This document shows positions 18,273 to 60,412 of a stretch of DNA of 64,000 nucleotides, piece by piece. Each line of letters begins with the position of its first letter. The stretch's first letter is position 1. The notes beneath the pieces are model-generated. The model searched no databases. It saw nothing but the letters and a program-made list of their open reading frames with translations, and was not told the origin of the DNA. A program made the translations under genes and the position numbers. Source of the DNA: an uncultured Pelagibacteraceae bacterium (GTDB lineage: Bacteria > Pseudomonadota > Alphaproteobacteria > Pelagibacterales > Pelagibacteraceae); assembly GCA_902573425.1 (NCBI GenBank), contig CACGJO010000001.1:186001-250000 (forward strand), read 5' to 3'.

Positions 18273-19340
18273 ATGACGAAAATTATTAACAAGATAGAAA
18301 ATGGAGACTCAATTGAAATTTTAAAGAGAATTCCAGATAAAAGTTTCGATTTAGTTTTTGCAGACCCTCCCTACAATATGCAAATTGGTGAAAAGCTTAC
18401 AAGACCTGATGACAGCAAGGTAGATGGAGTTAACGATAAGTGGGATCAGTTTTCAAGTTTCGAACATTATGATAAATTTTCTAAATATTGGCTGAAGGAA
18501 TGTAAAAGGATTCTGAAAGATAATGGTTCTATGTGGGTGATAGGAACTTACCATAATATTTTCAGACTAGGTTACCATATTCAAAATTTGAATTACTGGA
18601 TATTGAATGATGTAATTTGGAGAAAAAATAATCCGATGCCTAACTTTAAAGGCACTCGATTTACAAATGCACATGAAACTTTAATTTGGGCATCAAAAAA
18701 TAAAAAATCAAGATATACATTTAATTACCAATCTTTAAAATGTTTGAATGATGATTTGCAAATGAGGTCGGACTGGATACTTCCAATTTGTAACGGTAAA
18801 GAAAGATTAAAAAAAGATGGTAAGAAGATTCACTCAACACAAAAACCTGAGGCGTTATTACATAGAATAATATTGGCTACAACAAATAAAGGCGATTCCA
18901 TATTTGACCCCTTCCTAGGTACCGGAACTACAGCTGTTGTTGCAAAAAAATTAGGTCGGAAGTATTTTGGCGTAGAAAAAGATAAAAAATATTTTCAAGC
19001 AGCAAAACAAAGAATTAATGAAACATTGGAAATTAAAGATGATTATCTTGACATTCTTCCAAATAATAAGTCTAAACCAAGAGTTCCGTTTGGATCGTTA
19101 ATTGAAATGGGATTAATAAAACCTGGAACTACTCTTTTTGACGTAAAAAAGAGGTATAATGCTAAAATAATGGTTGATGGAAGCTTAAAGTGTCAAAAAG
19201 CTGAGGGATCAATCCATAAAGTGGCTGCAAAAATTATTGGAGCTGAAAGCTGCAACGGTTGGACTTATTGGCATTATATTTCAGGAAATGACCTTAAGCC
19301 AATTGATAATTTAAGGGAAAAGTTAAGACCTTCTTCTTAA
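18273..19340 (+). CDS. ccrM: Cell-cycle adenine-N6 DNA methyltransferase, CcrM type (GANTC)
   Basis: A 355-residue orphan beta-class N6-adenine methyltransferase. The catalytic motif LVFADPPYNMQIG comes first (about residues 28-40). The SAM motif FDPFLGTGTTAVVAKKLGRKYFGVE follows, then a C-terminal RAMA domain of about 80 residues (PFGSLIEMGLIKPGTTLF to the end). This order and tail match CcrM of alphaproteobacteria, which methylates GANTC during the cell cycle. No cognate nuclease is adjacent. Its 3' end overlaps the convergent flavin monooxygenase gene by 4 bases. Confidence 0.95.
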   Translation: MTKIINKIENGDSIEILKRIPDKSFDLVFADPPYNMQIGEKLTRPDDSKVDGVNDKWDQFSSFEHYDKFSKYWLKECKRILKDNGSMWVIGTYHNIFRLGYHIQNLNYWILNDVIWRKNNPMPNFKGTRFTNAHETLIWASKNKKSRYTFNYQSLKCLNDDLQMRSDWILPICNGKERLKKDGKKIHSTQKPEALLHRIILATTNKGDSIFDPFLGTGTTAVVAKKLGRKYFGVEKDKKYFQAAKQRINETLEIKDDYLDILPNNKSKPRVPFGSLIEMGLIKPGTTLFDVKKRYNAKIMVDGSLKCQKAEGSIHKVAAKIIGAESCNGWTYWHYISGNDLKPIDNLREKLRPSS

Positions 19341-20473
19341 ATAGTTTTGTAAATAATTCCTAAGTATTTGTTTAAAAATTTTTCTTTTTTTGTAATTTTT
19401 CTTAATAGATAATTTCTCGCTTTTACCATTAAGGGATTTGATAAATGAAAAGAAAAATAATTTAACTTTGACCTGCTATTGATAAGTTTAGTTTTCTCAA
19501 GCCGTTTTTTAAAGTAAAGATTTTGGACTGCTTTACTATTTTTAGAGAGTAAATTAAATAACTCATATGCGGCCTCAATAGATTGTGAAGCTCCTTGCGC
19601 CATAGTGGGATGAAAAGTATAAAATGCATCACCTAAATAAAATAAATTTTCATAAATTGATTTTGATGGTTTTTTGCTAGTATATATAGGCCAAGACTCT
19701 AAATTTCCTTTAAATAAATTTTCTAAATTTTTGTTCTGTGAAAGTATTTCTTTTTGGATTAGTGCTCTAGCATCTATATTTGTTTTTAATTTTTGCCTAA
19801 TTATAGTAACTATATTTAATTTCCTATCTTTATTAACTGGATAAATAACAATATGAGCATTTTTTAGCATTATAAGAGATATACTTTTTTCCTCGTAAAT
19901 AAAATCTTGTGTAGATTGAAGTAATGTTCTTATTGCAATTGAACCACTATAACTTGGATTTATATTTTTATTTTCGATAACTGATTTTGTATTTGAAAAA
20001 ACACCATCTGAGACAACAATATAATCTACTAAATCATTGGTATTATCTTTAAAATTAATTAAAAGTTTTTCTTTAATTTTTGAAACTTTTTTTATTTCTT
20101 TTCCAAAGCGAATATTATTTGCGAATAAATTACTCTTTAAAAATTCTATTAATGTTGATCTTCTTAAAGTTGTATATTTTATTTTTTCAGAATTAAAATT
20201 AGACAAATCTAAATTACAAATTTTTTTATCATCCCCAGAATAAAAATTTAATACTAATGGATTAAATAAATTATTATTATTTATATTTAAAAAACCAATT
20301 TTATTTAAAATGGATATGCTATTTGGCGCTAGTTGAATTCCATAGCCTTCCTCCAAGCTTAGAATTTTTTCTTTTTCGTAAACCATTATTTCAAAGTTCG
20401 AATTTGCTTTAAAGAGATTCGCAATAGTGAGACCAGCGATGCCAGACCCTATTATAGCAATTTTTTTTTTCAT
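19337..20473 (-). CDS. FAD-dependent monooxygenase, substrate unknown
   Basis: A 378-residue group A flavin hydroxylase. The FAD-binding GxGxxG fold is at the N-terminus (IAIIGSGIAGLTIANLF), and the second flavin motif GDAFYTFHPTMAQGASQSIEAA is at about 280-300. It resembles salicylate and 3-hydroxybenzoate hydroxylases and UbiH-type enzymes. The substrate, a quinone precursor or an aromatic compound, cannot be decided. It overlaps the mutY stop by one base (TAATG), so it is co-translated with mutY. Confidence 0.82.
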   Translation of the reverse strand: MKKKIAIIGSGIAGLTIANLFKANSNFEIMVYEKEKILSLEEGYGIQLAPNSISILNKIGFLNINNNNLFNPLVLNFYSGDDKKICNLDLSNFNSEKIKYTTLRRSTLIEFLKSNLFANNIRFGKEIKKVSKIKEKLLINFKDNTNDLVDYIVVSDGVFSNTKSVIENKNINPSYSGSIAIRTLLQSTQDFIYEEKSISLIMLKNAHIVIYPVNKDRKLNIVTIIRQKLKTNIDARALIQKEILSQNKNLENLFKGNLESWPIYTSKKPSKSIYENLFYLGDAFYTFHPTMAQGASQSIEAAYELFNLLSKNSKAVQNLYFKKRLEKTKLINSRSKLNYFSFHLSNPLMVKARNYLLRKITKKEKFLNKYLGIIYKTI

Positions 20474-21474
20474 TAATATAAGTTTTCTAATCGTCTAAAT
20501 ATTTTTTTAGTAAATGTGGGTATAAATTCTTTTTTATCATATAACGAATACCAACTTAAGTCTTTTGGAATCTTGCGTGAAAATTTATAATACAAATCTA
20601 TATTTAGTGTTTTGTTTGAAATCGAATTTTTATAATTACATAAAAAATTCCAGTTTTTTACTTTTTGTTTATTTATTTTTTCTTTAATGATGGGAAGATT
20701 GCAGTTTTTTAGAAAACCTAAATCATTTTTATTTGTTAAACCAATTTGTTTGTTATTATTTATATAACAAAAAATACTATAACTTTTTTTACTAAAATTA
20801 ATTGGTGAAGTTAATTTATTTTTTGTATTAGATTTTTTGAATTTACAAAATTTTTTAAAAATACAGATATTACAATGAGGATCTTTTGGTTTGCAGACAA
20901 GGGATCCAAACTCCATTATAGCTTCAACAAAATCTGAGTTTCTTTTTGAATTAAATAATTTATTTCTGTTTTTTGTTACAAATTTTTCAAAATTTATTTT
21001 ATTTTCTCTTTTGTTAATAAGTCTTGAGAAGATTCTCTTAACATTGCTGTCTAGGGCAATTCTGGGCTGGTTATAAACGAGTCCCAATAATGCATTTCCA
21101 GTATAATCACCAATACCTGGAAGCTTTTTAAGCTCAGATAAAGTTTTTGGTAAAATTGAATTTTTTTCTTTAATTATAATTTTAGAAGTCGCTAATAAGT
21201 GCCTGGCTCTTCTGTAATATCCTAATCCTTCCCAGTATTTAAGAATTTGTTTCTCATTAGTTTTTGAGAGTTTTTTAAGTGTTGAGATTTTGTTTGTGAA
21301 TCTTAAAAAATAAGGAATTACAGTTTTAACTTGTGTTTGTTGCAGCATAAACTCACTCAACAATCTATAGTATAGCTTTTTTGGTGAATGAAATGGTACA
21401 CGCCAAGGTAATGCGCGCTTATTATTATCATACCAACTAATTATTTTTTTTGATAAATTAAACTTTAAATGCAT
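20473..21474 (-). CDS. mutY: A/G-specific adenine glycosylase MutY
   Basis: About 333 residues from the ATG at 21474. A start at 21516 would lie inside the divergent gene. The HhH-GPD fold shows LPWRVPFHSPKKLYYRLLSEFMLQQTQV, the catalytic region LPGIGDYTGNALLGLVYN, and DSNVKRIFSR. The [4Fe-4S] ligands are intact in VCKPKDPHCNICIFKKFCKF (spacing 6-2-5). It removes adenine opposite 8-oxoguanine. The C-terminal NUDIX-like domain is poorly conserved. The start codon abuts the start codon of the divergent DUF721 gene. Confidence 0.94.
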   Translation of the reverse strand: MHLKFNLSKKIISWYDNNKRALPWRVPFHSPKKLYYRLLSEFMLQQTQVKTVIPYFLRFTNKISTLKKLSKTNEKQILKYWEGLGYYRRARHLLATSKIIIKEKNSILPKTLSELKKLPGIGDYTGNALLGLVYNQPRIALDSNVKRIFSRLINKRENKINFEKFVTKNRNKLFNSKRNSDFVEAIMEFGSLVCKPKDPHCNICIFKKFCKFKKSNTKNKLTSPINFSKKSYSIFCYINNNKQIGLTNKNDLGFLKNCNLPIIKEKINKQKVKNWNFLCNYKNSISNKTLNIDLYYKFSRKIPKDLSWYSLYDKKEFIPTFTKKIFRRLENLY

Positions 21475-21957
21475 AGTAAAAAAAATTATAATAATAAAAG
21501 TGCCTTCCCTATTCAAGGATTAAGGCCTATGTCTAAAACTCTTCCTAATGGTCTTAAAACAATTTTAAAAAAAGGTGGATACAACTACGCTTCGATAATC
21601 AATAACTGGTCAGATTTAGTTGGAAAACAAATATCTGATGTTTGTTATCCAAAATCAATTAAAACTGGAAAAGAATTAAAAGATGGAATTCTACATTTGA
21701 ATGTTTTTCATGGTGATCAGCTTTTAATAGAATATAATAAATCAAAAATCATAGACAGAATAAATGTTTTTTTTGGATATAAATTTGTAAAAAATATTAA
21801 AATATTTTTAATTAAAGAAAAAATTGATCCTAAAAAAAATATAAATTTTACAAACAATAAAAATTCTAAGTATCAAAAAAAATTGGAAAAGATACAAAAT
21901 CCTGAGTTAAAGAAAAAAATCAATAATTTGATAAATGCATTTAATAACAAAAAATAA
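21469..21957 (+). CDS. DUF721/DciA-like protein
   Basis: A 162-residue protein with the DUF721 pattern: LPNGLKTILKKGGYNYASIINNWSDLVGKQISDVCYP, then a domain with KDGILHLNVFHGDQLLIEY. DUF721 contains DciA, a loader of the replicative helicase in many bacteria. Whether this short alphaproteobacterial form acts so is inference. The order mutY, DUF721, DsbA-like, smc is common in alphaproteobacteria. The ATG at 21469-21471 directly precedes the reverse ATG of mutY (21472-21474). Confidence 0.78.
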   Translation: MHSKKNYNNKSAFPIQGLRPMSKTLPNGLKTILKKGGYNYASIINNWSDLVGKQISDVCYPKSIKTGKELKDGILHLNVFHGDQLLIEYNKSKIIDRINVFFGYKFVKNIKIFLIKEKIDPKKNINFTNNKNSKYQKKLEKIQNPELKKKINNLINAFNNKK

Positions 21958-21958
21958 A

Positions 21959-22567
21959 ATGAAAATTAAATATATTGGGTATTTTACTATTTTTTTTTTA
22001 ACAATATTATGCTTATCTAATTTCAATTCTAATGCTTTGGAGATAGATAAAAAAGTTTATGCTGGAAACAAAGATGCTAAAGTAACGGTAAAAGTATTTT
22101 CTTCCTTGACTTGTCCATATTGTGCCGATTTTCATAAAAATGTTTTTATTAAATTAAAAAAAGAATTCATAGATTCAAACTATGTTCGATTCGAGCACCA
22201 TAGTTTCCCTTTAGATTTGGCCGCTTTGAATGCAGAAAAAATTTTAAGATGTGTGACTGATCACAAAAAAAGAATAGCTCTTTTAGATGAAATTTATGAA
22301 AAACAAGAAGAATGGGCCTCAGGAAATGATATTAACAACATTAACTCCAAATTGTCAAAAATCGCAAAGAAATATGATTTAAATGATGATAGAATAAAAA
22401 ATTGCTTAGTAAATGAAAATTTAGAAAATGAAATATTAGAAATTAGAATAAATGGAAGCAAAAAATACTCTATTCAATCTACTCCCACAATTTTTATAAA
22501 TGAAAAAAAATATGATGGTAAGCATGACTATAATTTATTTAAGAAAGAAATAGAAAAACTATTATAA
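21959..22567 (+). CDS. DsbA-like thiol:disulfide oxidoreductase, periplasmic
   Basis: About 202 residues from the ATG at 21959. An N-terminal signal (YIGYFTIFFLTILCLSNFNSNA) leads to a thioredoxin-fold domain with the active-site motif CPYC in SSLTCPYCADFHKNVF. An inserted helical region follows, then the cis-Pro segment IQSTPTIFINEKKYDG. It fits the DsbA/BdbD (Thioredoxin_4) group, which oxidises or reshuffles disulfides in exported proteins such as cytochromes. It starts 1 base after the DUF721 stop and ends 3 bases before smc. Confidence 0.9.
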   Translation: MKIKYIGYFTIFFLTILCLSNFNSNALEIDKKVYAGNKDAKVTVKVFSSLTCPYCADFHKNVFIKLKKEFIDSNYVRFEHHSFPLDLAALNAEKILRCVTDHKKRIALLDEIYEKQEEWASGNDINNINSKLSKIAKKYDLNDDRIKNCLVNENLENEILEIRINGSKKYSIQSTPTIFINEKKYDGKHDYNLFKKEIEKLL

Positions 22568-22570
22568 ATT

Positions 22571-25150
22571 ATGAATTTTAAAAAATTGGAATTAATCGGC
22601 TTTAAATCTTTCTTTGATAAAACTACTTTTTTTATTCAAGACGGTTTAACGGGGATAGTTGGGCCTAATGGGTGTGGTAAATCAAATATTGTTGAGTCTT
22701 TACGATGGTGTATGGGGGAAACATCTGCAAAAAGTATGCGAGGATCTGGTATGGAAGATATAATATTTTCAGGAACATCAAATAAACCAGCAAAAAATAT
22801 ATCAGAAGTAATAATTACAATAGATAATTCACAAAAAGAGGGTCCTGGAAAATATTTGAATATGGAAGAAATAGTAATCAAGAGGAAAATTGAACGTGAA
22901 AAAGGTTCAAAATATTTTATTAATGAAAAAGAAGTAAGAGCAAAAGATGTACAGACTTTTTTTGCTGACCTATCCACTGGAGCTCACTCACCATCGATAA
23001 TAAGTCAGGGGAAAATTGGAATGATTGTTACAGCAAAACCACAAGAGAGAAAATCAGTTTTAGAGGAGGCTGCGGGAATTTCTGGGATACACATTAGAAG
23101 GCATGAGGCTGAGACAAGATTAAATGCTGCAGAAAATAATCTTAAAAGAGCTGATGAATTAAAAAAACAACAAGAGAAACAACTTGAAAACTTAAAAAAG
23201 CAAGCCGAGGAAGCTACGAGATATAGGGAAATATCTGAAAAAATAAAAACTGTCGAAGCAGGACTTTTTTATTTGAAACTTCAGGAAATTGAAAATGAAA
23301 CTTCTCAAGTAAAAGTTAAGCTTTCAGCGATTGATAATGAAGTTAATTCTGTAAAAAAAGATATTGAGCATAATAAAGAATTAGTGGAGGAAGAAAGTAA
23401 AAAACTTGAGCCATTGAAGGACAAAAAAATTGAAAATTCTTCCTCAATTCAAAAAATTAATTTAGAGATTTCAAATTTAAATGAGGAAGAAAAAAGAGTT
23501 AAAGATTTAAATATAAAATTATTAAATAATATTAAAACTATCCAATCAGATCTGGAGAGGGAGAAAAGTATATCACTAGATGCATCATTAAATGAAAAGA
23601 GAATCTTAGAAGAAAAAAATGAACTTTTAAAAACCGAAAGACAATTATTCGATATTGAAAAAAAATCAGAGATAGATCTAGATTTATCAAGAAGCGAACT
23701 TAAAGATCATCAGATTAAACTTGATGACTTTTTAGAAAAAAAACTGGAGTCTGTTGACCTAAAAGAACAGCTTAAAATTTTTATTAAAATTGATGAAATA
23801 AATAAATCTGTAATAAGAAGTTTAGAGGACTCAAGATTAGATGAGGCGAACTCAGGACTAAAAAAAATTAATGAAATTTTACAAAATCAGATCAAAAATA
23901 TTGAAGTTATAGATAGGAATGATTTGAGTATAAATGTAAAAGGACTTATTGAGAATATAACACTGTCCCAAGAGAGATATGCATCCTCATTTGGTAAAAA
24001 CCAAACAATTAGAAGTGACTCTATAAAAAGAAAGGAAAGAATAAAAAATATTGATCAAGAATTAGAAAATTGGAAAGATCTAAAAGTTAATTCTGAAAAA
24101 ATGATGCTGGAGTTGAGTGATAGAGTTAAAAAAGTTGAATTAGAGTTAGATGAAAACCAAAAGAATCCTGAACAAATTGCAATAAATAAAGGTCAGAATA
24201 TCCAAAAACTTGAAAATACTGAAAAACAAAATAATGATTTAGAAATAGAAATAGAAAAAGTCGAAGCAAATTATATCGAAGCCAATAATAAGCTGCGGGA
24301 TATAGAGGAAAAATCTGTTGTTTTAAGAGAAAATAAAGCAAGACAAGAAGCTACGATAGAGGGAATTGATCAAAGAAAAATGGATCTTATATATTTAGTT
24401 AAGAATGAACTAAAATTAGAGAATATAAACAATTTATTATCTATTTCTGATTTAAACGACTTGCCCAAACCACCATCAGTAAAAGAACAAGAAGATAAAT
24501 TGAACAAACTCAAAAAAGATAGAGAGTCTTTAGGTTCTGTTAACTTAAGAGCAGATGTAGAAACTGAAAAATATAGAGCAACTATAAAAAAAATGGAAGA
24601 TGATAGAACTGATCTTGTATCTGCAATAGTTAAATTAAAATCTAGTATTAATGAGTTAAATCAAAGGGGCAGAGAAAGACTCTTAGATGCTTTTAATAAA
24701 GTAAATAGAAAGTTTAATGAGGTTTTTACAAAGCTCTTTAATGGAGGGAATGCTAAGCTCGAACTAGTAGACTCGGATGATCCTTTAGAAGCTGGATTAG
24801 AAATGTTAGTTTCGCCACCAGGAAAAAGGTTGCAATCAATAACTCTTTTGTCTGGTGGAGAACAGGCTTTAACAGCTATTTCACTTATATTTGCAATTTT
24901 TTTAACTAATCCTTCGCCTATATGTATCTTAGATGAAGTTGATGCACCGTTGGACGATGCAAATGTAACTAGGTTTTGTTCATTGCTAGATCAGCTTATT
25001 TCAATTACTAAAACCAAGTTTATAATAATAACTCACCATGCTTTAACTATGTCGAAAATGAATAGACTTTATGGTGTAACAATGCCTGAAAAAGGTATCA
25101 GCAAACTTGTGGCTGTCGATTTACAACGGGCAGAAGAATTGGTTGCTTAA
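22571..25150 (+). CDS. smc: SMC-type chromosome segregation ATPase, short and apparently hinge-less
   Basis: An 859-residue protein with a complete SMC ATPase head. The N-terminal half has KLELIGFKSF and Walker A GPNGCGKSNIVESLRW (about 32-47). The C-terminal half has the ABC signature LLSGGEQALTAISL and Walker B CILDEVDAPLDDANV (about 775-810). Bacterial SMC proteins are usually about 1150-1190 residues with a globular hinge in mid-chain. Here the middle (about 170-700) looks like continuous coiled coil, and I find no glycine-rich hinge. Only a short helical segment (about 396-455) breaks it. Position after mutY-DUF721-dsbA is standard for alphaproteobacterial smc. No scpA or scpB is in the window. 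Confidence 0.9.
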   Translation: MNFKKLELIGFKSFFDKTTFFIQDGLTGIVGPNGCGKSNIVESLRWCMGETSAKSMRGSGMEDIIFSGTSNKPAKNISEVIITIDNSQKEGPGKYLNMEEIVIKRKIEREKGSKYFINEKEVRAKDVQTFFADLSTGAHSPSIISQGKIGMIVTAKPQERKSVLEEAAGISGIHIRRHEAETRLNAAENNLKRADELKKQQEKQLENLKKQAEEATRYREISEKIKTVEAGLFYLKLQEIENETSQVKVKLSAIDNEVNSVKKDIEHNKELVEEESKKLEPLKDKKIENSSSIQKINLEISNLNEEEKRVKDLNIKLLNNIKTIQSDLEREKSISLDASLNEKRILEEKNELLKTERQLFDIEKKSEIDLDLSRSELKDHQIKLDDFLEKKLESVDLKEQLKIFIKIDEINKSVIRSLEDSRLDEANSGLKKINEILQNQIKNIEVIDRNDLSINVKGLIENITLSQERYASSFGKNQTIRSDSIKRKERIKNIDQELENWKDLKVNSEKMMLELSDRVKKVELELDENQKNPEQIAINKGQNIQKLENTEKQNNDLEIEIEKVEANYIEANNKLRDIEEKSVVLRENKARQEATIEGIDQRKMDLIYLVKNELKLENINNLLSISDLNDLPKPPSVKEQEDKLNKLKKDRESLGSVNLRADVETEKYRATIKKMEDDRTDLVSAIVKLKSSINELNQRGRERLLDAFNKVNRKFNEVFTKLFNGGNAKLELVDSDDPLEAGLEMLVSPPGKRLQSITLLSGGEQALTAISLIFAIFLTNPSPICILDEVDAPLDDANVTRFCSLLDQLISITKTKFIIITHHALTMSKMNRLYGVTMPEKGISKLVAVDLQRAEELVA

Positions 25151-25159
25151 AATTTTCTC

Positions 25160-25447
25160 ATGAGCGACTTAGAGGATTTAAAAACTCGCCTAAAAATTGC
25201 AAAATCAAAATTGCAAAAAGATAAAACTCAAAATGCAGATAAAAAGGGTGTTTTTCTTGGGAATGCATTTAAATTGGGAACAGAGTTGGTCGCAGCCGTT
25301 ATCGTTGGGACAATTATTGGGTTTATTTTAGATAATTGGTTTGGTACTAAACCAATATTAATTATAGTATTTTTCTTATTTGGGGCTGCTGCTGGTATTA
25401 CAAACGTTATTAAAGCTGCAAGAAAAATGCAAAGGGATATAAAATAA
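25160..25447 (+). CDS. atpI: ATP synthase protein I
   Basis: A 95-residue protein with a charged N-terminal half and two membrane helices (LVAAVIVGTIIGFILDNWFG and LIIVFFLFGAAAGITNVI). This is the AtpI pattern at the head of F0 operons. AtpI helps assemble the c-ring and may aid Mg2+ supply. It starts 9 bases after smc and overlaps the atpB start by one base (TAATG). Confidence 0.9.
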   Translation: MSDLEDLKTRLKIAKSKLQKDKTQNADKKGVFLGNAFKLGTELVAAVIVGTIIGFILDNWFGTKPILIIVFFLFGAAAGITNVIKAARKMQRDIK

Positions 25448-27524: not shown

Positions 27525-28991
27525 ATGGCAAAAAAAGTTATTGTTGTAGGATCTGGATTCGGTGGTTTAGCTTCAGCTCTTAGATTAAGAGCAAAAGGTT
27601 ATGATGTAACTCTAGTTGAAAAACATCCTGACTTGGGTGGAAGAGCTAGAGTTTTTAAAAAAGGTAGCTTTATTTACGACGGTGGACCAACAGTTATAAC
27701 TGCCCCGTATCTTTTTGAGGAATTATTTTCATTATTTAATAAAAAAATTTCTGATTACGTAAAAATAGTACCACTCAATTTATGGTATCGTTTTGTTTTT
27801 AATGATGGACGAACTTTTGATTATTCAGGCCATGAAGATTCGATGGAAAAAGAAATAAGAAAATTTTCTGAAAAGGACCTAGGGGGATATAAGAATTTAG
27901 TTAAGTTTACTGAAAAAATTTTTGATAAAGGTTTTACTGAATTATCTGATAAACCTTTTAATAACTTATCTTTTATGATCAAGCAGATACCTGCTTTGTT
28001 GAATTTAAAAAGTTACAAATCTGTTTATGGATTAGTTTCAAATTATATTTCGAATGAAGAGTTAAGAAGAGTTTTTAGTATGCATCCTCTTCTGGTGGGA
28101 GGAAACCCGTTCACAACAACTTCAATATATACACTTATTTTATTTTTAGAAAAAAAATGGGGTATTCACTATTCAATGGGTGGTACGGGAAGTGTTGTAA
28201 AAGCACTTGAGAAATTAATGAATGAAGAAGGTATTAAGGTAATTAAAGATGCAGAAGTTACAGAAATAATTTCATCCAACAAAATAGTTAAATCTGTAAA
28301 AATCAATAGCTCTAAAATTATAAATTGTGATTATGTTGTTTGTAATTCTGATCCACCGAATGTGTACAAAAATTTAATTAAATCTGAAAATAATTATAAT
28401 TTTATTTTTAAACAAAAAATAAAAAGAATGGATTATTCAATGGGACTTTTTGTTTATTATTTTGGATCAAAAAAGCAATATAAAGATGTTGCTCATCATA
28501 CAATTTATTTTGGAAAATCCTATAAAAAACATTTAGAGAAAATCTTTGAAAAAAAAATTCTATCAGATGATATAAGTTATTATTTACATCGACCTTCTGC
28601 AACAGATCCTAATATGGCACCAAGTGGTCAGGATGCTTTTTACGTCCTGGTTCCAGTTCCTAATAATTTATCAAAGATTAATTGGTCAAATGAAGGTGAG
28701 AAATTTAAAAATTTAGTTTTAGATAAAATGGATAAATCAGTTTTACCTGATATAAAAAAAAATGTTGTTAGTGATTTTTATCTCACACCAGATTATTTTG
28801 AAAAAGATTTGTCTACACTACATGGCTCAGGATTTTCTATACAACCAAAGTTTTCACAATCAGCGTATTTTAGATTTCATAATCAATCTGAGATTTTTAA
28901 TAATTTATATTTTGTTGGTGCCGGAACTCATCCTGGCGCAGGAATGCCAGGTGTAATTTCTTCAGCTAAGGTTTTAGATAAAATTTTATAA
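27525..28991 (+). CDS. crtI: Phytoene desaturase
   Basis: A 488-residue FAD enzyme that desaturates phytoene to lycopene. The N-terminal dinucleotide fold reads VVGSGFGGLASALRLRAKGY, with EKHPDLGGRARVF. The CrtI C-terminal signature is YFVGAGTHPGAGMPGVISSAK. Start and length are typical. It begins 16 bases after atpF, with no visible promoter or terminator between. Its stop overlaps the crtB start (TAATG). It is the first gene of a set leading to retinal. Confidence 0.96.
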   Translation: MAKKVIVVGSGFGGLASALRLRAKGYDVTLVEKHPDLGGRARVFKKGSFIYDGGPTVITAPYLFEELFSLFNKKISDYVKIVPLNLWYRFVFNDGRTFDYSGHEDSMEKEIRKFSEKDLGGYKNLVKFTEKIFDKGFTELSDKPFNNLSFMIKQIPALLNLKSYKSVYGLVSNYISNEELRRVFSMHPLLVGGNPFTTTSIYTLILFLEKKWGIHYSMGGTGSVVKALEKLMNEEGIKVIKDAEVTEIISSNKIVKSVKINSSKIINCDYVVCNSDPPNVYKNLIKSENNYNFIFKQKIKRMDYSMGLFVYYFGSKKQYKDVAHHTIYFGKSYKKHLEKIFEKKILSDDISYYLHRPSATDPNMAPSGQDAFYVLVPVPNNLSKINWSNEGEKFKNLVLDKMDKSVLPDIKKNVVSDFYLTPDYFEKDLSTLHGSGFSIQPKFSQSAYFRFHNQSEIFNNLYFVGAGTHPGAGMPGVISSAKVLDKIL

Positions 28992-29854
28992 TGACTACAA
29001 AAAACTATTTATCTATTTATGCAAAATCATTTAATTGGTCTGGATTTTTTTTACCAAAAAATATTTATGTAAATTGTTCAAAATTATATGATTTTTGTAG
29101 AACTGTAGACAATATCGCAGACCAGGAGGCGAGTTTAGATTATAAAAAAAATGAGCTCATAAAATTTAAAAATAATTTTGAAAACAAAAATTATGAGAAT
29201 GTAGTAATAAAAAATATGTGGACGTTAATGAATGAGTTTAATATATCAAAAAAAATAGTTGATGACTTATTTGACGGTGTGGAGTCAGACATAAAAGAGG
29301 AGGTTAAGTTCAAAAATGAAAAAGAATTATTTATATACTCATATAGGGTTGCTGGGACAGTTGGCTTAATGATGGCTAAAATTTTTAATATTCAAAAAAG
29401 AGATACTCTCCGAAGAGCTATATATTTAGGAATTGCTATGCAACTTACAAATATAGCCCGAGATGTTGTCGAAGATGAAAAAAAAAATAGAGTTTATCTA
29501 ATCAACTACTCAAAAGATACTCTCATAAATATTAAAAAAATTATCTATATTGCTGACACATTTTATAATAGTTCTTTTATTGGTATAAAAGATATTCCTT
29601 TAAACTGTAGATTTTCGATAGTTGTTGCGAGAAGAGTATATAGACAAATAGGTAAAAAAATTTTAAAAAAAAAAAATTTAGATAGCTACAAAAAAGCTGA
29701 AAAAATTTATGTATCTAATTTTGGTAAAATAGTACAAACATTATTTTCCATTAAAGATTTAGTTGTTCTTTTTTTTATTAAAAAAAGTAAGTATGAGAAA
29801 GAAAAAGAATACAATTTAATTAATGAGCATATAGAATTAAATGAGAGAATTTGA
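28991..29854 (+). CDS. crtB: Phytoene synthase
   Basis: A 287-residue enzyme that condenses two GGPP molecules to phytoene. The two aspartate-rich motifs of the squalene/phytoene synthase fold are seen as DFCRTVDNIADQE (about 31-43) and TNIARDVVEDEKKNRVYL (about 152-170). Its start overlaps the crtI stop and its 3' end overlaps crtY by 14 bases. The GGPP synthase gene crtE is not in the window and must lie elsewhere. Confidence 0.95.
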   Translation: MTTKNYLSIYAKSFNWSGFFLPKNIYVNCSKLYDFCRTVDNIADQEASLDYKKNELIKFKNNFENKNYENVVIKNMWTLMNEFNISKKIVDDLFDGVESDIKEEVKFKNEKELFIYSYRVAGTVGLMMAKIFNIQKRDTLRRAIYLGIAMQLTNIARDVVEDEKKNRVYLINYSKDTLINIKKIIYIADTFYNSSFIGIKDIPLNCRFSIVVARRVYRQIGKKILKKKNLDSYKKAEKIYVSNFGKIVQTLFSIKDLVVLFFIKKSKYEKEKEYNLINEHIELNERI

Positions 29855-30920
29855 CTATAAAATATTTGGGGGTGGTTGTGCAGGTTTGTCTTTAGCATAC
29901 CATTTAGAGATAAACGGGAAATTAAGAGACAAAACTTTAGCAATTATAGAGCCAAGAACTGAGTACAAAAGAGATAAAACTTGGTCTTTTTGGAAGGTTT
30001 GTAATCATGAATTTGAAGATTGTGTTATTAAAAGCTGGAATAATTTTTCTATAAAAGCAAATAGCAATTTAAATAAAGTTAATACTAAAAATTATCCTTA
30101 TCAAAGCATTGATAGTGGAAAATTTTATAAAAAAATAACTTCCAAATTAAAAAGAAATAACAACATAAAGTTTTTTAAAGAAGATGAGGTTGGACATTTT
30201 TCAATACTCTTTAATAGTGTCCTCTATCCCAGTTCTGATTTTTTTTTCAAAGAAAATAAAACTAAACTTTGGCAACATTTTCAAGGAGTTGAAATTGAAA
30301 CAAGTGAAAAAATATTTGACGATGAGTCTCTGACTTTAATGGATTTTGATTGTGAACAAAGAAATAATGTTCATTTCTTTTACATTCTGCCTTTCACAAA
30401 AAATAAAGCTCTAGTCGAAACAACTTGGATATCAAGTTTAGAAAATGGAGATTTGACAGATTATGATAATCAATTAAAAATTTATATTGATAAAAATTTA
30501 GGTATAAAAAATTATAAAATAAATTTCAAAGAAAAAGGCTCCATACCATTATTTGAAGTTAACCAACCTGAAACCGGAACTTGTATAAATATTGGTGCCG
30601 CAGGAGGAATGACACGTTTAAGCACAGGATACACTTTTCTCAATATTCAAGAACATAGTAAGTTTATTGTTAAAAATCTTGAGAATATAACTAAAACTAA
30701 ATCTTACCATATTGGCAAAAAATATAATTTTTTAGATAACATTTTTTTAAAAGTATTAAAATCAAATCCTGAAAGAATGCCAAATATATTTTATAAAATG
30801 TTTAATGGAAACACAGAAAGAACAATAAAATTTCTTTCAAATAAAAGTAGTTTTATCGATGATGTTTTTGTTATTTTAAAAATGCCAAAATGGATGTTTA
30901 TAAAATCTCTTTTTAACTAG
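29841..30920 (+). CDS. crtY: Lycopene beta-cyclase
   Basis: A 359-residue flavoprotein of the CrtY family, converting lycopene to beta-carotene. The N-terminal fold FGGGCAGLSLAYHLE binds the dinucleotide. DKTWSFWK is typical of CrtY, and INIGAAGGMTRLSTGYTFLNIQ is the conserved C-terminal block. It overlaps crtB by 14 bases and ends one base before blh. Two-ring cyclisation is needed for retinal formation. Confidence 0.94.
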   Translation: MREFDYKIFGGGCAGLSLAYHLEINGKLRDKTLAIIEPRTEYKRDKTWSFWKVCNHEFEDCVIKSWNNFSIKANSNLNKVNTKNYPYQSIDSGKFYKKITSKLKRNNNIKFFKEDEVGHFSILFNSVLYPSSDFFFKENKTKLWQHFQGVEIETSEKIFDDESLTLMDFDCEQRNNVHFFYILPFTKNKALVETTWISSLENGDLTDYDNQLKIYIDKNLGIKNYKINFKEKGSIPLFEVNQPETGTCINIGAAGGMTRLSTGYTFLNIQEHSKFIVKNLENITKTKSYHIGKKYNFLDNIFLKVLKSNPERMPNIFYKMFNGNTERTIKFLSNKSSFIDDVFVILKMPKWMFIKSLFN

Positions 30921-30921
30921 T

Positions 30922-31863
30922 ATGATGAAAAATATTTACGGTAAACACACATTCTATTTCTCAGTTTTAACAATAATTTTTTCAGTCATTACTTTAATTT
31001 TTGCTAAAAATTTTGAATTTTCAAATCAAACAATAGTTCCTTTTGTATGCCTCTTTTTAATTTTGTCTGTTGGTATATCTCATGGAGCTTTAGACAACTA
31101 TAAAGCAAATAAGATTTTAAAAATTTATAAAATTAATAATAAATTAGTGTTTTATTTCTCTTATATTTGTATTTCAATTTTAATCATTATATCTTGGATA
31201 TTCTTTTCTTTGATAACTCTATTAGCTTTTTTATTAATTGCTTCTTACCATTTTGGTAGGGAGGACACGTCTTTTTTAATTAAAAAAAATTCAAGTTTTG
31301 ATCAATTTTTATACTTGGTGAAAGGTTCTTTAATTATATTCTCGCCCCTCTTCTTTCATACCGATGAAACTTTAAAAATATTTGAATTATTATTTATAAA
31401 TAATAGTTTTTTAATTTTTATTAAAAATGAACATTGGCTAATTAATGTTTGTCTAATATTTAATTTTTTAGGCTACTTATACTTTGTGTTTAGAAATAAT
31501 TTTGATAATTTTGAAATATTATTTTTGGATTTACTTTTAATTCTTCTTATAAATTTTGTTTTTTCACCTTTATTAGCTTTTACAATTTACTTTTGTTTTT
31601 TACATTCCATAAGACATATAATTTCTATTGTTCTTGAATTGGATGAAGCTAATTTTTCAAACGGTATCAAATTGTTTATTAAAAAAGCTCTACCATTAAC
31701 AATTATAACTGCAATATTATATTTATTGGCGGTATTTTTTATTGCAAACTTTTATGGTTTAAATACTGCAATTATGCAAGTTATATTTATTGGTTTGGCG
31801 TCACTAACGTTCCCGCATATATTGCTCGAGTATTTAATTGAAAAAAATGAAACAAAAAATTAA
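30922..31863 (+). CDS. blh: Beta-carotene 15,15'-dioxygenase (Blh/Brp family)
   Basis: A 313-residue membrane protein with about eight hydrophobic helices. Histidines sit in the family motifs: GISHGALDNY (His54), ASYHFGRED (His110), FLHSIRHI (His228 and His232) and FPHILLEY (His299). In characterised Blh proteins such histidines bind the catalytic iron. It splits beta-carotene into two retinals, the chromophore of proteorhodopsin. It closes the crtI-crtB-crtY-blh set and overlaps ispH by 17 bases. No rhodopsin gene is in the window. Confidence 0.94.
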   Translation: MMKNIYGKHTFYFSVLTIIFSVITLIFAKNFEFSNQTIVPFVCLFLILSVGISHGALDNYKANKILKIYKINNKLVFYFSYICISILIIISWIFFSLITLLAFLLIASYHFGREDTSFLIKKNSSFDQFLYLVKGSLIIFSPLFFHTDETLKIFELLFINNSFLIFIKNEHWLINVCLIFNFLGYLYFVFRNNFDNFEILFLDLLLILLINFVFSPLLAFTIYFCFLHSIRHIISIVLELDEANFSNGIKLFIKKALPLTIITAILYLLAVFFIANFYGLNTAIMQVIFIGLASLTFPHILLEYLIEKNETKN

Positions 31864-33752: not shown

Positions 33753-34181
33753 ATGAAATATAAAATTTATACCGATGGAGCTTGTTCGGGAAATCCTGGT
33801 AAAGGGGGCTGGGCAGCAATAATACTGAATGAAAAATCCAATCAATCTAATATTTCAGGAAACGAAGTGAGCACAACAAATAATAGGATGGAATTGATGG
33901 CTCCAATTATGGCTTTAAATAAAATTAAAAAAAAGTCAGAAATTACAATTTATACCGACTCCAAGTATGTCAAAGATGGAATTACTGATTGGATTAAAAA
34001 GTGGAAATTAAATAATTGGAAAAGCGCAAATAAGAAACCTGTAAAAAATAAAGATCTTTGGGTTAAGTTAGATAATTCGTGCCAAAAACATAAAGTAAGT
34101 TGGAAATGGGTTAAAGCTCATGCGGGAAATAAATATAACAATCTTGTTGATGAATTAGCAGTTATAGAGACTCAAAAGTGA
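33753..34181 (+). CDS. rnhA: Ribonuclease HI
   Basis: A 142-residue enzyme that cuts RNA in RNA-DNA hybrids. The DEDD catalytic residues lie in YTDGACSGNPGKGGW, NNRMELMAPI, TIYTDSKYVKDGI and NLVDELA. KWVKAHAGNKYNN holds the catalytic histidine. The thrB-rnhA order is common in alphaproteobacteria, which marks the following restriction-modification pair as an insertion into an otherwise standard region. Confidence 0.97.
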   Translation: MKYKIYTDGACSGNPGKGGWAAIILNEKSNQSNISGNEVSTTNNRMELMAPIMALNKIKKKSEITIYTDSKYVKDGITDWIKKWKLNNWKSANKKPVKNKDLWVKLDNSCQKHKVSWKWVKAHAGNKYNNLVDELAVIETQK

Positions 34182-34186
34182 AAATT

Positions 34187-34948
34187 ATGGAAGATAAAGA
34201 TTTAGAAAATCTAGAATTCAGTTACTTAGAGACTATAAGTGCTATACTTAAGGCAAATATTAGAAATAACATTTTACCAGCTTTGAAATCAATGAATAAA
34301 ATTTCTAGTCACTGGGTAAATATTAAAAAAGATGAAGATAAAGGTTACGATGTTGGTTTTGAAAGAGTTATTTATTCATTACTACAACAAGGATCGTCTG
34401 ATTTAAAAAATGCAAACTCTTCCCCAATTGGCTCTGATCTAATGTTCGAGTCTGATGATGCGGTAATTCATATAGATTTAAAAAGTAATCAACCATCAAC
34501 TAATATAGGAGACCATTGGCAGCCAAAAATCGAAGCAAATCAAAGTTCTTATAAAATAAATTATAATAAAAAAGGACAAGGTGGAACTTTTGCATTTGAG
34601 GGAAATTTACCTAATTATTACAAAGTCAATGATGGTGGCACCATTAAAGAATTGCCGGCCTTAACCTATTTTATTTCGATTTTGTACAATGTTTCTGAAG
34701 GAAAATGTGAAATCATAAATATTAATGTTAGTTGTATGCCGAACGGTCAATTATCTGATGTTTATGGTACAGAACCAATAGGTGCCGGTGGAAATATTAG
34801 TAAAAAAAAATGTAGATTTAAAATGGGAAGATGTAAAAAATTTAAACTTATTAATGAAAAAAGATTAAATAAAATTTATATAAATAGAAACTATATTAGA
34901 AACAACTCTATTCCCTCTAAGATGCAGCTCTTAAAGTTTCTTTCTTAA
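34187..34948 (+). CDS. Type II restriction endonuclease, NgoBV/NlaIV-like
   Basis: About 253 residues from the ATG at 34187; a GTG at 34178 overlapping the rnhA stop is an alternative. A PD-(D/E)xK-type core is visible as SPIGSDLMFESDDAVIHIDLKS (about residues 83-104). The nearby RVIYSLLQQGSSDLKN and GQGGTFAFEGNLPNYY fit my memory of the NgoBV/NlaIV family, which cuts GGNNCC. The specificity is inference. It is convergent with a cytosine-5 methyltransferase, and the two 3' ends overlap by 32 bases. Both genes together form a type II restriction-modification system. Confidence 0.72.
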   Translation: MEDKDLENLEFSYLETISAILKANIRNNILPALKSMNKISSHWVNIKKDEDKGYDVGFERVIYSLLQQGSSDLKNANSSPIGSDLMFESDDAVIHIDLKSNQPSTNIGDHWQPKIEANQSSYKINYNKKGQGGTFAFEGNLPNYYKVNDGGTIKELPALTYFISILYNVSEGKCEIININVSCMPNGQLSDVYGTEPIGAGGNISKKKCRFKMGRCKKFKLINEKRLNKIYINRNYIRNNSIPSKMQLLKFLS

Positions 34949-36158
34949 TTAATATATTTTTTATTTTTTTGGCGATATTTTCGGCAAGTAACACAGGCAC
35001 AGCGTTACCTATTTGTTTGTGCATACTCCTAAAAGTGGCCCCCTCAAAGATAAAATCATCCGGAAACGACTGAAGAATAGCGCACTCTCTAACAGATAAT
35101 CTTCTTTTTAAATTTACATGTATTTCAGGGCTTGTTGCAGTTATTGTATCACTTGGTCTATCCCAGTTAGTTACTCTTAAAGATTGTTCAAATCTTATTT
35201 TTTTCTTTACCAAAGTTGTAACTTGTTTGTCGTATTTATTATCAAATTTTAAAAGTTTTTTTAGTCCTCGCCAATCATCTGGGTTTGGAATACTTCCAGA
35301 GTTATTATCTTTTCTAAACCAATGACCCGCGGTGTGCGCATAACCAAAATGTGCATCAACTTTTTGAGTAGATATGCCAGCTTTTTTTCTCCATTTTTTT
35401 AAATAATCACAAATATCAAATTGGTTAACGTCATATTTTCTTCCCCAAAATTCATCGTGTACATTCGTATCACCAATGTGATTGTGTATAGTGCGGTTTT
35501 TTACGTACAGAGTTTTATTTGTTAATCTTATTTTCGATAGAAAGCCTATGGCATCTTTGGTGCTTATATGTTTATCAAGATGGTCTTTAAACAATGATAC
35601 TTTATTTGTTGATGGTATTTGATGGGATATATTCGGGTAAGAATTTTCCAAACCTAGTCTATTACCAATGATAAAAACTCTCTTTCTTGATTGTGGTACT
35701 CCGTAATCAGCGGCGTTTAAAAGTTTAAAATCTACTTTATAACCAATGCTTTTAAAATCTTTGATAATTTTTTGAAGTACAGCACCTTTTCCTAAAGTAA
35801 TGATCCCCTCAACATTTTCTGCAACAAAGTATTTTGGTTTTTTTACTCTGATTACTCTAAGCATTTGTTTATAGAGCTTGTTGCGACTATCATCTATGTG
35901 GCGACCTTTATTAGCTATTGAAAAACCTTGGCAAGGAAAACCGCCTATAACTAAATCGGCTCCATCTGGGATATTGTTGTTTCTAATTCTCTCGATATCA
36001 CCAAGAACTATATGTTCTCCAATATTTTTTTTATAGGTTTTGACAGAGTCAGGGTCGATATCATTTGCCCAAATTATTTCAAAACCAGCGTTTTTAAACC
36101 CAAGATCCATTCCTCCAGCGCCAGCAAATAAAGAAATTATTTTAAATTTATTTTTCAT
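34917..36158 (-). CDS. DNA cytosine-5 methyltransferase, restriction-modification partner
   Basis: A 413-residue enzyme with the ordered C5-MTase motifs: FAGAGGMDLGFKNAGF (I), the catalytic Cys in IGGFPCQGFSIANKG (IV), ENVEGI (VI), QSRKRVFIIG (VIII), a variable target-recognition region and a C-terminal RECAILQSFPDDFIF with IGNAVPV (IX-X). It should protect the host from the convergent endonuclease. The codon use looks a little richer in G and C than flanking genes, which may point to transfer. Specificity cannot be read directly. Confidence 0.93.
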   Translation of the reverse strand: MKNKFKIISLFAGAGGMDLGFKNAGFEIIWANDIDPDSVKTYKKNIGEHIVLGDIERIRNNNIPDGADLVIGGFPCQGFSIANKGRHIDDSRNKLYKQMLRVIRVKKPKYFVAENVEGIITLGKGAVLQKIIKDFKSIGYKVDFKLLNAADYGVPQSRKRVFIIGNRLGLENSYPNISHQIPSTNKVSLFKDHLDKHISTKDAIGFLSKIRLTNKTLYVKNRTIHNHIGDTNVHDEFWGRKYDVNQFDICDYLKKWRKKAGISTQKVDAHFGYAHTAGHWFRKDNNSGSIPNPDDWRGLKKLLKFDNKYDKQVTTLVKKKIRFEQSLRVTNWDRPSDTITATSPEIHVNLKRRLSVRECAILQSFPDDFIFEGATFRSMHKQIGNAVPVLLAENIAKKIKNILIKKETLRAAS

Positions 36159-59503: not shown

Positions 59504-60412
59504 TTACTTTGCATCTTTTATATCTTTTTTGATCTGTTTTTTTAATTCTAAAATATTTTTAAATCTTTTTTCACCTCGTATAAATTTAATTAGCATTATT
59601 TTAATTCTTTTATCATATAAATTTTTATTAAAGCTAAAAATATGAGCCTCAAGAATTAATTTCTTCTTTCCAAATGTTGGTCTATATCCAACATTTACAA
59701 TACCTTTTTTTTTGGTTTTATTACCTATAAGAATTTTTGCTGAATATACTCCAAGTTTAGGAACTATATAATTCTTTATATCAATATTACATGTTGGAAA
59801 ACCAATAGTTCTTCCTCTTCTATCACCTCTTTGAACCTTGCCTTCTATTGTCCAAGATCTTCCTAGTAGCTTATTGGCATATTCTATTTTACCATTTTTA
59901 ATTTTATTTCGAATTAGCGTCGATGAAACTGTTAAATTTTTTTTATTTAAAGGTGTTATTGTTTTAGTTTTATAATTAAAAAAAACCTCTTTTTTTTTTA
60001 ATAATTTAATATCACCAGCTCTATTTTTTCCAAATCTAAAATTTTTACTTATAAAAATTAATTTTACCTTGAGTTTTTTATAAACAATTTCTCTAATAAA
60101 ATTTTCAGAGGAAATATTTGAAAATTTTTCGTTGAACTTTTTAATAATCAAAAAATCTAATCCATATTTTTTTGATGATAAAATCTTTTGATTTAAAGAG
60201 TCGATTCTATAATTTTTCAATTTTTTATTAAAAAACATTATTGGTAATGGGTGAAATACTAAAAGGCCAAATTTTAAATTATATTTTTTTGCAATAAGTT
60301 TACCTTGATTGATTACCTTCTGGTGACCCAAATGAAAACCATCAAAATTTCCAATAGCGATTGCAGAATTTTGAAATTTTTTTTCTATTTTAAAATTTTT
60401 ATAGATTTTCAT
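59504..60412 (-). CDS. ribF: Bifunctional riboflavin kinase/FAD synthetase
   Basis: A 302-residue enzyme making FMN and FAD from riboflavin. The N-terminal adenylyltransferase has IAIGNFDGFHLGHQKVI and the conserved STLIRNKIKNG. The C-terminal kinase has GRTIGFPTCNIDIK and later GIVNVGYRPTFGKK. The order ribF-ileS-lspA is widely conserved. It lies 5 bases upstream of ileS and abuts the HAD gene. Many flavoproteins in this window depend on its product. Confidence 0.96.
   Translation of the reverse strand: MKIYKNFKIEKKFQNSAIAIGNFDGFHLGHQKVINQGKLIAKKYNLKFGLLVFHPLPIMFFNKKLKNYRIDSLNQKILSSKKYGLDFLIIKKFNEKFSNISSENFIREIVYKKLKVKLIFISKNFRFGKNRAGDIKLLKKKEVFFNYKTKTITPLNKKNLTVSSTLIRNKIKNGKIEYANKLLGRSWTIEGKVQRGDRRGRTIGFPTCNIDIKNYIVPKLGVYSAKILIGNKTKKKGIVNVGYRPTFGKKKLILEAHIFSFNKNLYDKRIKIMLIKFIRGEKRFKNILELKKQIKKDIKDAK

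Follow-up and report, generated by a model that had tools for sequence, protein, structure and literature searches.

SMC proteins organize chromosomes as rings across most of life, and the hinge is regarded as a central element of SMC complexes and a possible gate for DNA. Can a bacterial Smc do without it? The question is raised by a gene in the window, a stretch of 64,000 nucleotides from an uncultured member of the Pelagibacterales (SAR11). A preliminary description, made from the letters alone, had read this gene as an smc whose product keeps both ATPase half-heads and appears to lack a hinge.

The smc gene and its ATPase heads

The gene (window 22571-25150, + strand) is an 859-aa open reading frame (ORF) with an ATG start. 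Its product matched Pfam SMC_N in two half-heads (E value, 6.9e-51), and its best NCBIfam match was SMC_prok_B (TIGR02168; 674.7 bits, against a cut-off of 567.35), so that the half-heads are indeed intact. Walker A, signature, and Walker B motifs of a split ABC-type ATPase head are all present. Across 68 sequences the motif columns are invariant or nearly so, and those of GPNGCGKSN (columns 31 to 39) are invariant. In six pairs of sequences, dN was well below dS in both heads and arms. We conclude that the ORF, by its sequence, encodes an ortholog of bacterial Smc.

Relatives were collected with phmmer (202 hits), keeping only ORFs closed at both ends within their own locus. Of 137 relatives found in named genomes and others, the 80 kept from named genomes are SAR11-type records. 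The closest, from a Pelagibacteraceae single-cell genome, is 99% identical. A PF02463 search of the window's own genome (G000) returned 12 matches, made up of both halves of smc, a 598-aa frame, and weaker matches below the cut-off. The 598-aa frame (G000:C1:235150; 39.2 bits) is RecN-like by size only. The search found no second smc in this assembly, which is 79.5% complete. The features of the locus are listed in Table 1.

Table 1. Features of the smc locus, in window coordinates
Feature	Position	Strand	Basis or remark
mutY-like gene, conserved neighbor	20473..21516	-	Match in 9/10 loci
DUF721-like gene, conserved neighbor	21469..21957	+	Match in 9/10 loci
DsbA-like gene directly 5′ of smc	21935..22567	+	10/10 loci
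N-terminal ATPase half-head, residues 1-170 (GPNGCGKSN)	22571..23080	+	SMC_N, TIGR02168; border approximate
N-terminal coiled-coil arm, residues 171-419	23081..23827	+	Predicted AlphaFold helices
Better conserved N-arm patch, residues 331-345	23561..23605	+	Mean majority fraction 0.67, 36 Pelagibacterales sequences
Apical region, residues 391-465, site of distal arms and hinge in other alphaproteobacterial Smc	23741..23965	+	
Predicted apex hairpin turn, residues 420-422 (DSR)	23828..23836	+	AlphaFold break between helices 397-419 and 423-446
C-terminal coiled-coil arm, residues 423-669, with an approximate C-terminal border	23837..24577	+	AlphaFold; alphaproteobacterial Smc HMM match 415-858
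Better conserved C-arm patch, residues 466-510, candidate arm-arm contact	23966..24100	+	0.61-0.70, letters only
C-terminal ATPase half-head, residues 670-859 plus the stop codon (LLSGGEQ, LDEVDAPLDDAN)	24578..25150	+	SMC_N, TIGR02168, alphaproteobacterial Smc HMM
atpI-like gene directly 3′ of smc	25160..25447	+	9/10 loci

Search for a hinge

The Pfam hinge model PF06470 gave nothing for the window Smc at an E value of ≤10 (HMMER filters discard most weak matches). This model has blind spots: it does not match the Caulobacter protein, it does not match at an E value of ≤10 an 865-aa alphaproteobacterial Smc (L126) described below, and it matched only 91 of the 289 class genomes searched. Since it misses other alphaproteobacterial hinges as well, we dropped it as sole proof of absence and trained a hinge HMM on 30 Smc proteins of the Alphaproteobacteria, which was run at maximum sensitivity. 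All 16 untrained Smc proteins of 961 to 1517 aa used as positive controls were detected (48.7 to 150.3 bits), as was L126 (78.2 bits). The other 130 short Smc proteins scored at most 2.3 bits, and this HMM found no match in the window Smc. An HMM of the whole alphaproteobacterial Smc matched the window protein over positions 1 to 392 and 708 to 1150; the 315 positions between them (393 to 707), which hold the distal arms and the hinge, lie opposite only 22 window residues (393 to 414).

Profile-profile comparison gave the same result. Using hhalign, we compared the hinge profile with the middle of SAR11 family f1 (0.0% for two queries), of SAR11 family f2 (0.1%), and of L125, a related short Smc from a second order (0.1%). 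Divergent single-sequence controls were recovered at 98.9% (L126), 98.7% (L129), 98.9% (L131), and 98.3% (L137). A larger hinge alignment (A3; 46 of 47 hinge stretches, with L102 omitted), set against 68 full-length SAR11 Smc proteins (A1), reached 0.3% and aligned to the head. Pfam, the alphaproteobacterial HMM, hhalign, and AlphaFold are thus all without a hinge in the window Smc, as the preliminary description had proposed. No significant hinge hit, no globular hinge fold, and no second full-length smc was seen, the three observations that it had named beforehand as contrary to its claim. As read from sequence and prediction, the protein has neither the hinge nor the outer portions of the two arms found in other alphaproteobacterial Smc proteins. 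Because no hinge was found, we regard it as an Smc ortholog without the canonical SMC architecture.

We rejected short length as evidence of hinge loss. L126, encoded in a genome of a single 1.41-Mb contig (G176, presumably HIMB59-type), resembles the window Smc in its near-equal length, its shortened arms, and its gene neighborhood (locus L229) but differs in retaining a hinge (residues 370 to 482). Since L126 has much shortened arms and yet a hinge, shortening of the arms can be separated from loss of the hinge.

Arms, apex, and predicted fold

AlphaFold, run on an alignment of 68 sequences, predicted helices in the window Smc at residues 171 to 211, 215 to 394, 397 to 419, 423 to 446, 450 to 530, and 532 to 613, with shorter ones thereafter. 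The protein is helical from 171 to 723 except for short breaks and a looser stretch at 614 to 660, in the form of a long antiparallel coiled coil. Block pLDDT was 81 to 92 over residues 261 to 580 but 64 to 73 at kinks near 391 to 400 and 441 to 460. Both in this model and in that of a 798-aa relative (L219), the heads were poor (long stretches with pLDDT of <50; pTM, 0.31 to 0.32); hence, only the arms and apex were used. The L219 model has helices at 173 to 389 and 393 to 554, with three residues between them (pLDDT there, 67 to 75). The window turn at 420 to 422 appears to correspond to these residues, 390 to 392 (IRSLEDSRLDEA and KELVNAQKNDEA), and therefore the 859-aa protein looks like this hairpin lengthened by about 30 residues in each arm. 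Among relatives the apical stretch varies in length and is shorter in many. Foldseek comparison with the PDB gave Smc5/6, Rad50, condensin, and Smc heads as best matches (TM-scores of <0.3, normalized to the query) and was uninformative, given the elongated shape of the model and its poorly predicted heads. Sequence and prediction together point to a plain antiparallel coiled-coil hairpin on intact heads, with very roughly 220 to 260 residues per arm. The short stretch near residues 396 to 455 that the preliminary description had placed where a hinge would be does lie at the hinge site; by none of the tests applied is it a hinge remnant, and it forms the apex of the predicted hairpin.

Conservation was measured as the mean majority fraction per block, counting letters only, in 36 Pelagibacterales sequences. 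Apex blocks (residues 391 to 465) scored 0.34 to 0.39, the lowest block included, and 0.22 to 0.32 when gaps counted against a column. Variable arm blocks came near the apex values (256 to 270, 0.39; 556 to 570, 0.40), and among 12 equal-length rows the apex values (0.43 to 0.55) overlapped those of blocks 241 to 270 (0.49 to 0.50). In 30 canonical alphaproteobacterial Smc proteins, hinge blocks 521 to 540 and 601 to 640 (L075 numbering) reached 0.70 to 0.75, the highest values within 221 to 940, and other hinge blocks 0.50 to 0.62. The conservation peak that other alphaproteobacteria show at the hinge is gone from the SAR11 apex. By region, dN was highest at the apex in four of six pairs; of the other two, one had an intermediate apex value and the other its lowest value there. 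Since the apex has no conservation peak and the dN pattern is mixed, we see no order-wide apical dimerization element.

Distribution of the hinge-less form

We searched 147 Pelagibacterales genomes, an even sample of a larger group. An Smc protein was found in 136; the other 11, five of them at least 90% complete, gave no Smc match. Not one of the 147 had a hinge match at 0.001. Hinge loss is therefore order-wide in the sampled Pelagibacterales, in keeping with the earlier suggestion of a lineage-wide change in a small genome. Nor did the alphaproteobacterial profile find a hinge encoded elsewhere in these genomes, its single match being a 217-aa frame at an E value of 0.144. The 129 Pelagibacterales Smc proteins extracted, a partly redundant set, are all of 798 to 881 aa, and some come from single-contig genomes.

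Across the class, the A3 hinge profile found the domain in 90 of 142 genomes, 44 of which are independent of A3, since 46 gave a row to it. Seven of the 97 genomes with a TIGR02168 match at 1e-40 had no hinge match: G000 and G001, which belong to the order; G169; and G162, G190, G210, and G282, in which smc is matched only in part or as fragments. In the small order that includes G169, a related frame of 806 to 820 aa is present in 5 of 6 genomes; the G169 protein, L125, the sole member of its order so checked, has no hinge by profile. This second small order thus seems to be hinge-less too. In a tree built from the heads alone (64 rows and 399 columns, with a bootstrap that had not settled), the Pelagibacterales rows grouped together (100/99) and L125 was unplaced. 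Under the approximately unbiased (AU) test, a single clade uniting Pelagibacterales and L125 was not rejected (P = 0.349), a result that does not by itself establish their unity. The Pelagibacterales and the order of G169 would represent one or two losses of the hinge.

Arm length seems to vary upward as well: three alphaproteobacterial Smc proteins (L141, L142, and L143) have 1345 to 1517 aa, with hinges present. As a separate observation, 45 of the 142 alphaproteobacterial genomes, some nearly complete, had no TIGR02168 match at 1e-40, possibly reflecting lost or very different condensins.

We considered viral carriage of the hinge-less smc and rejected it. Of 236 pattern matches in viral contigs, only 13 encode any relative, none is close (26 to 54% identity), and 11 of the 13 align over only 24 to 61 query residues. 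The other two (L252 and L253), frames of about 703 aa, cover most of the query but score only 33.5 to 36.9 bits and have no significant hinge match.

Gene neighborhood and condensin partners

We compared the neighborhood at ten selected loci: eight hinge-bearing, one hinge-less (L230), and L233, which comes from the same taxonomic order. The genes beside the window smc, which we take to be mutY, DUF721, DsbA, and atpI, belong to an order, mutY-DUF721-dsbA-smc-atpI-atpB, that is common to hinge-bearing and hinge-less alphaproteobacteria in this set, and the window smc is thus also a positional ortholog. Misses in Table 1 are genes not matched or lying beyond the stretch examined. Farther out, ccrM and rnhB occur in 6 of the 10 loci. 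Gene order and profile scores tie the window Smc, as far as sequence can, to the Alphaproteobacteria. Between the ccrM-like gene and mutY, the window has an ORF resembling an FAD-binding monooxygenase (19337-20473; PF01494) that is unmatched in the ten other loci.

The genome also encodes the usual partners. Adjacent scpA and scpB genes lie at G000:C5:58964-59611 and 59719-60180. ScpA and ScpB were each found in 27 of 41 relatives, the window's own genome included, and ParB was found in 22 of 26, again including the own genome. Many of the relatives without a match (14 for ScpA and ScpB, 4 for ParB) are incomplete. Two parS-like sites with 2 mismatches each are present in the own genome, one of them about 1.2 kb from parB; the backward control gave 0. 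The usual ParB/parS loading pathway seems to be in place, and we infer that it works.

Proposed mechanism and alternatives

We consider it likely that the protein is a hinge-less Smc ortholog that still acts as a condensin. It would remain part of Smc-ScpAB, loaded by ParB at parS. ATP-dependent head engagement would bring two Smc chains together, and ScpA would connect them by binding one chain at its neck and its partner at the cap. The arms may contact each other side by side as a zipped rod, perhaps via the two better conserved patches (331 to 345 and 466 to 510), and DNA would be held mainly within the head-ScpAB clamp, with the upper compartment closed weakly or transiently.

For the apical end of such a condensin, we tentatively favor arm-arm contact as the link. 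That there is no apical link whatever is somewhat unlikely, a contact between hairpin tips or a further partner protein at the apical end is in each case improbable, and some other arrangement is very improbable. Findings described in the available text of two papers led us to favor a condensin held by heads, kleisin, and arm-arm contact. In Bacillus subtilis, Smc with a Rad50 zinc hook instead of a hinge supports normal growth (PMC5344682). In that chimera the hinge is swapped for another dimerization domain, whereas in SAR11 Smc it is gone. Shortened Smc constructs that still dimerize function at arm lengths of 253 to 267 residues, and natural prokaryotic arm lengths cluster at 238, 341, and 515 (PMC5344682). 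The window arms, at very roughly 220 to 260 residues (approximate borders), are near the shortest cluster. In the apo state, SMC arms lie zipped together and the head clamp probably forms a core compartment, while a large hinge-closed ring is called common among SMC complexes and the hinge is the apparent main DNA entry of cohesin (PMC10512200).

Alternatively, the complex could be topologically open, its Smc chains joined at the heads and by ScpA only, so that a working SAR11 Smc-ScpAB condensin without apical dimerization would load at parS and organize the chromosome as a clamp and not as a closed ring. The apex, which varies in length and sequence and has no element conserved across the order, is consistent with this reading, as is the retention of ScpA and ScpB. 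Against it, arms of some 220 to 260 residues have been kept and are conserved in parts, which suggests that the arms have a joint role, and we regard an open clamp as rather unlikely. If true, it would mean that condensins in nature can function with no hinge and no closed tripartite ring and, together with the actinobacterial case discussed below, that marine bacteria have lost the hinge more than once.

Dimerization of the hairpin tips in place of the hinge, close to the coiled-coil tip contact raised in the preliminary description, fits an apical hairpin sequence that reads alike in the 859- and 798-aa proteins. It also fits a motif near the apex, GYDD(P/T)xxWTxIFxxKFY, which is carried by all six f2 Smc proteins (L117 to L122) but by none of the 125 other short ones. 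The middle of the 131 short Smc proteins (129 from Pelagibacterales plus L125 and L126) contains no CxxC. Conservation at the apex is among the lowest in the protein, although arm stretches 241 to 270 and 556 to 570 are about as variable, and it has the highest dN in four of the six pairs. With no order-wide conserved element and a varying length at the apex, a tip contact is unsupported, and we judge it improbable. In f2 itself, the motif could be a small tip contact.

It is highly unlikely that the former condensin is now a repair ATPase like RecN or Rad50. These proteins also resemble heads on hinge-less coiled coils, but SMC_prok_B is the best NCBIfam match, the genome has a separate RecN-sized frame (the 598-aa SMC_N match) as well as ScpA, ScpB, ParB, and parS-like sites, and there is no CxxC. 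RecN is not among the best 25 of the 30 NCBIfam families that match the window Smc.

The possibility that the middle conceals a hinge too diverged for the profiles to detect draws on the known failure of PF06470 with alphaproteobacterial hinges (Caulobacter and L126). We consider it largely refuted and most unlikely: the alphaproteobacterial profile detects even divergent hinges and yet found nothing, no strand is predicted between residues 123 and 755, a three-residue turn joins the two long helices of the 798-aa relative, and the apex has no conservation peak where hinge-internal blocks peak in canonical relatives. A truncated or chimeric gene or an assembly error, which the 79.5% completeness of the genome might have suggested, is already refuted by the uniform 798- to 881-aa range of the 129 Pelagibacterales proteins, some in single-contig genomes, and by dN values far lower than dS in both heads and arms, and has next to no chance of being correct.

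Relation to known systems

The window Smc shares with canonical alphaproteobacterial Smc (TIGR02168) its heads, head-proximal arms, gene neighborhood, and ScpA, ScpB, and ParB in the genome. It differs from the canonical form in having 22 residues in place of the 315 profile positions of hinge and distal arms. Rad50/SbcC is likewise a coiled-coil ATPase without an SMC hinge; it has a CxxC zinc hook, whereas the window Smc has no CxxC, has SMC-type heads, and is accompanied by a kleisin gene in the genome. MukB is also a chromosome-organizing SMC relative, and its Pfam model gave no match to the window Smc at an E value of ≤10 and matched 3 of 36 relatives (best E value, 0.096).

The closest parallel is a hinge-less SMC clade in marine Actinobacteria (Sussfeld et al. 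2025, PMC12153180). As described in the available text of that paper, it has heads on an antiparallel coiled coil, no hinge, and no CxxC, as in SAR11, and is likewise marine. It differs in being placed near the base of actinobacterial SMC, and the loss is therefore presumably independent of that in SAR11. The words "SAR11" and "Pelagibacter" are absent from its main text. The SAR11 order is described as the most abundant marine microorganisms in the available text of PMC10308909, which has no mention of condensin, the lone string match being "condensing." We found no report of a hinge-less SMC in SAR11 in the literature searched, which covered few subscription journals. Thus, the hinge-less form is already known from Actinobacteria (PMC12153180), and the SAR11 case appears to be new.

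The sampled SAR11 Smc proteins probably hold DNA in a manner beyond standard models. Natural loss of the hinge with heads, ScpAB, and ParB kept makes it possible to test directly which functions of SMC depend on a hinge and on ring closure, and the SAR11 and actinobacterial cases point to repeated hinge loss among marine bacteria.

Other genes in the window

A C5 cytosine DNA methyltransferase gene (window 34917-36158, - strand; PF00145, 4.4e-86) is faced by a 256-aa ORF (34178-34948, + strand) that has no Pfam match at 0.01 and directly follows an rnhA-like gene. Together, the two (34178-36158) are possibly a type II restriction-modification pair. Window 27525-31863, adjoining ATP synthase-like genes, holds three genes that we presume to be crtI, crtB, and crtY, followed by a beta-carotene 15,15′-dioxygenase gene (PF15461, 8.6e-56). 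These genes probably serve the supply of retinal.
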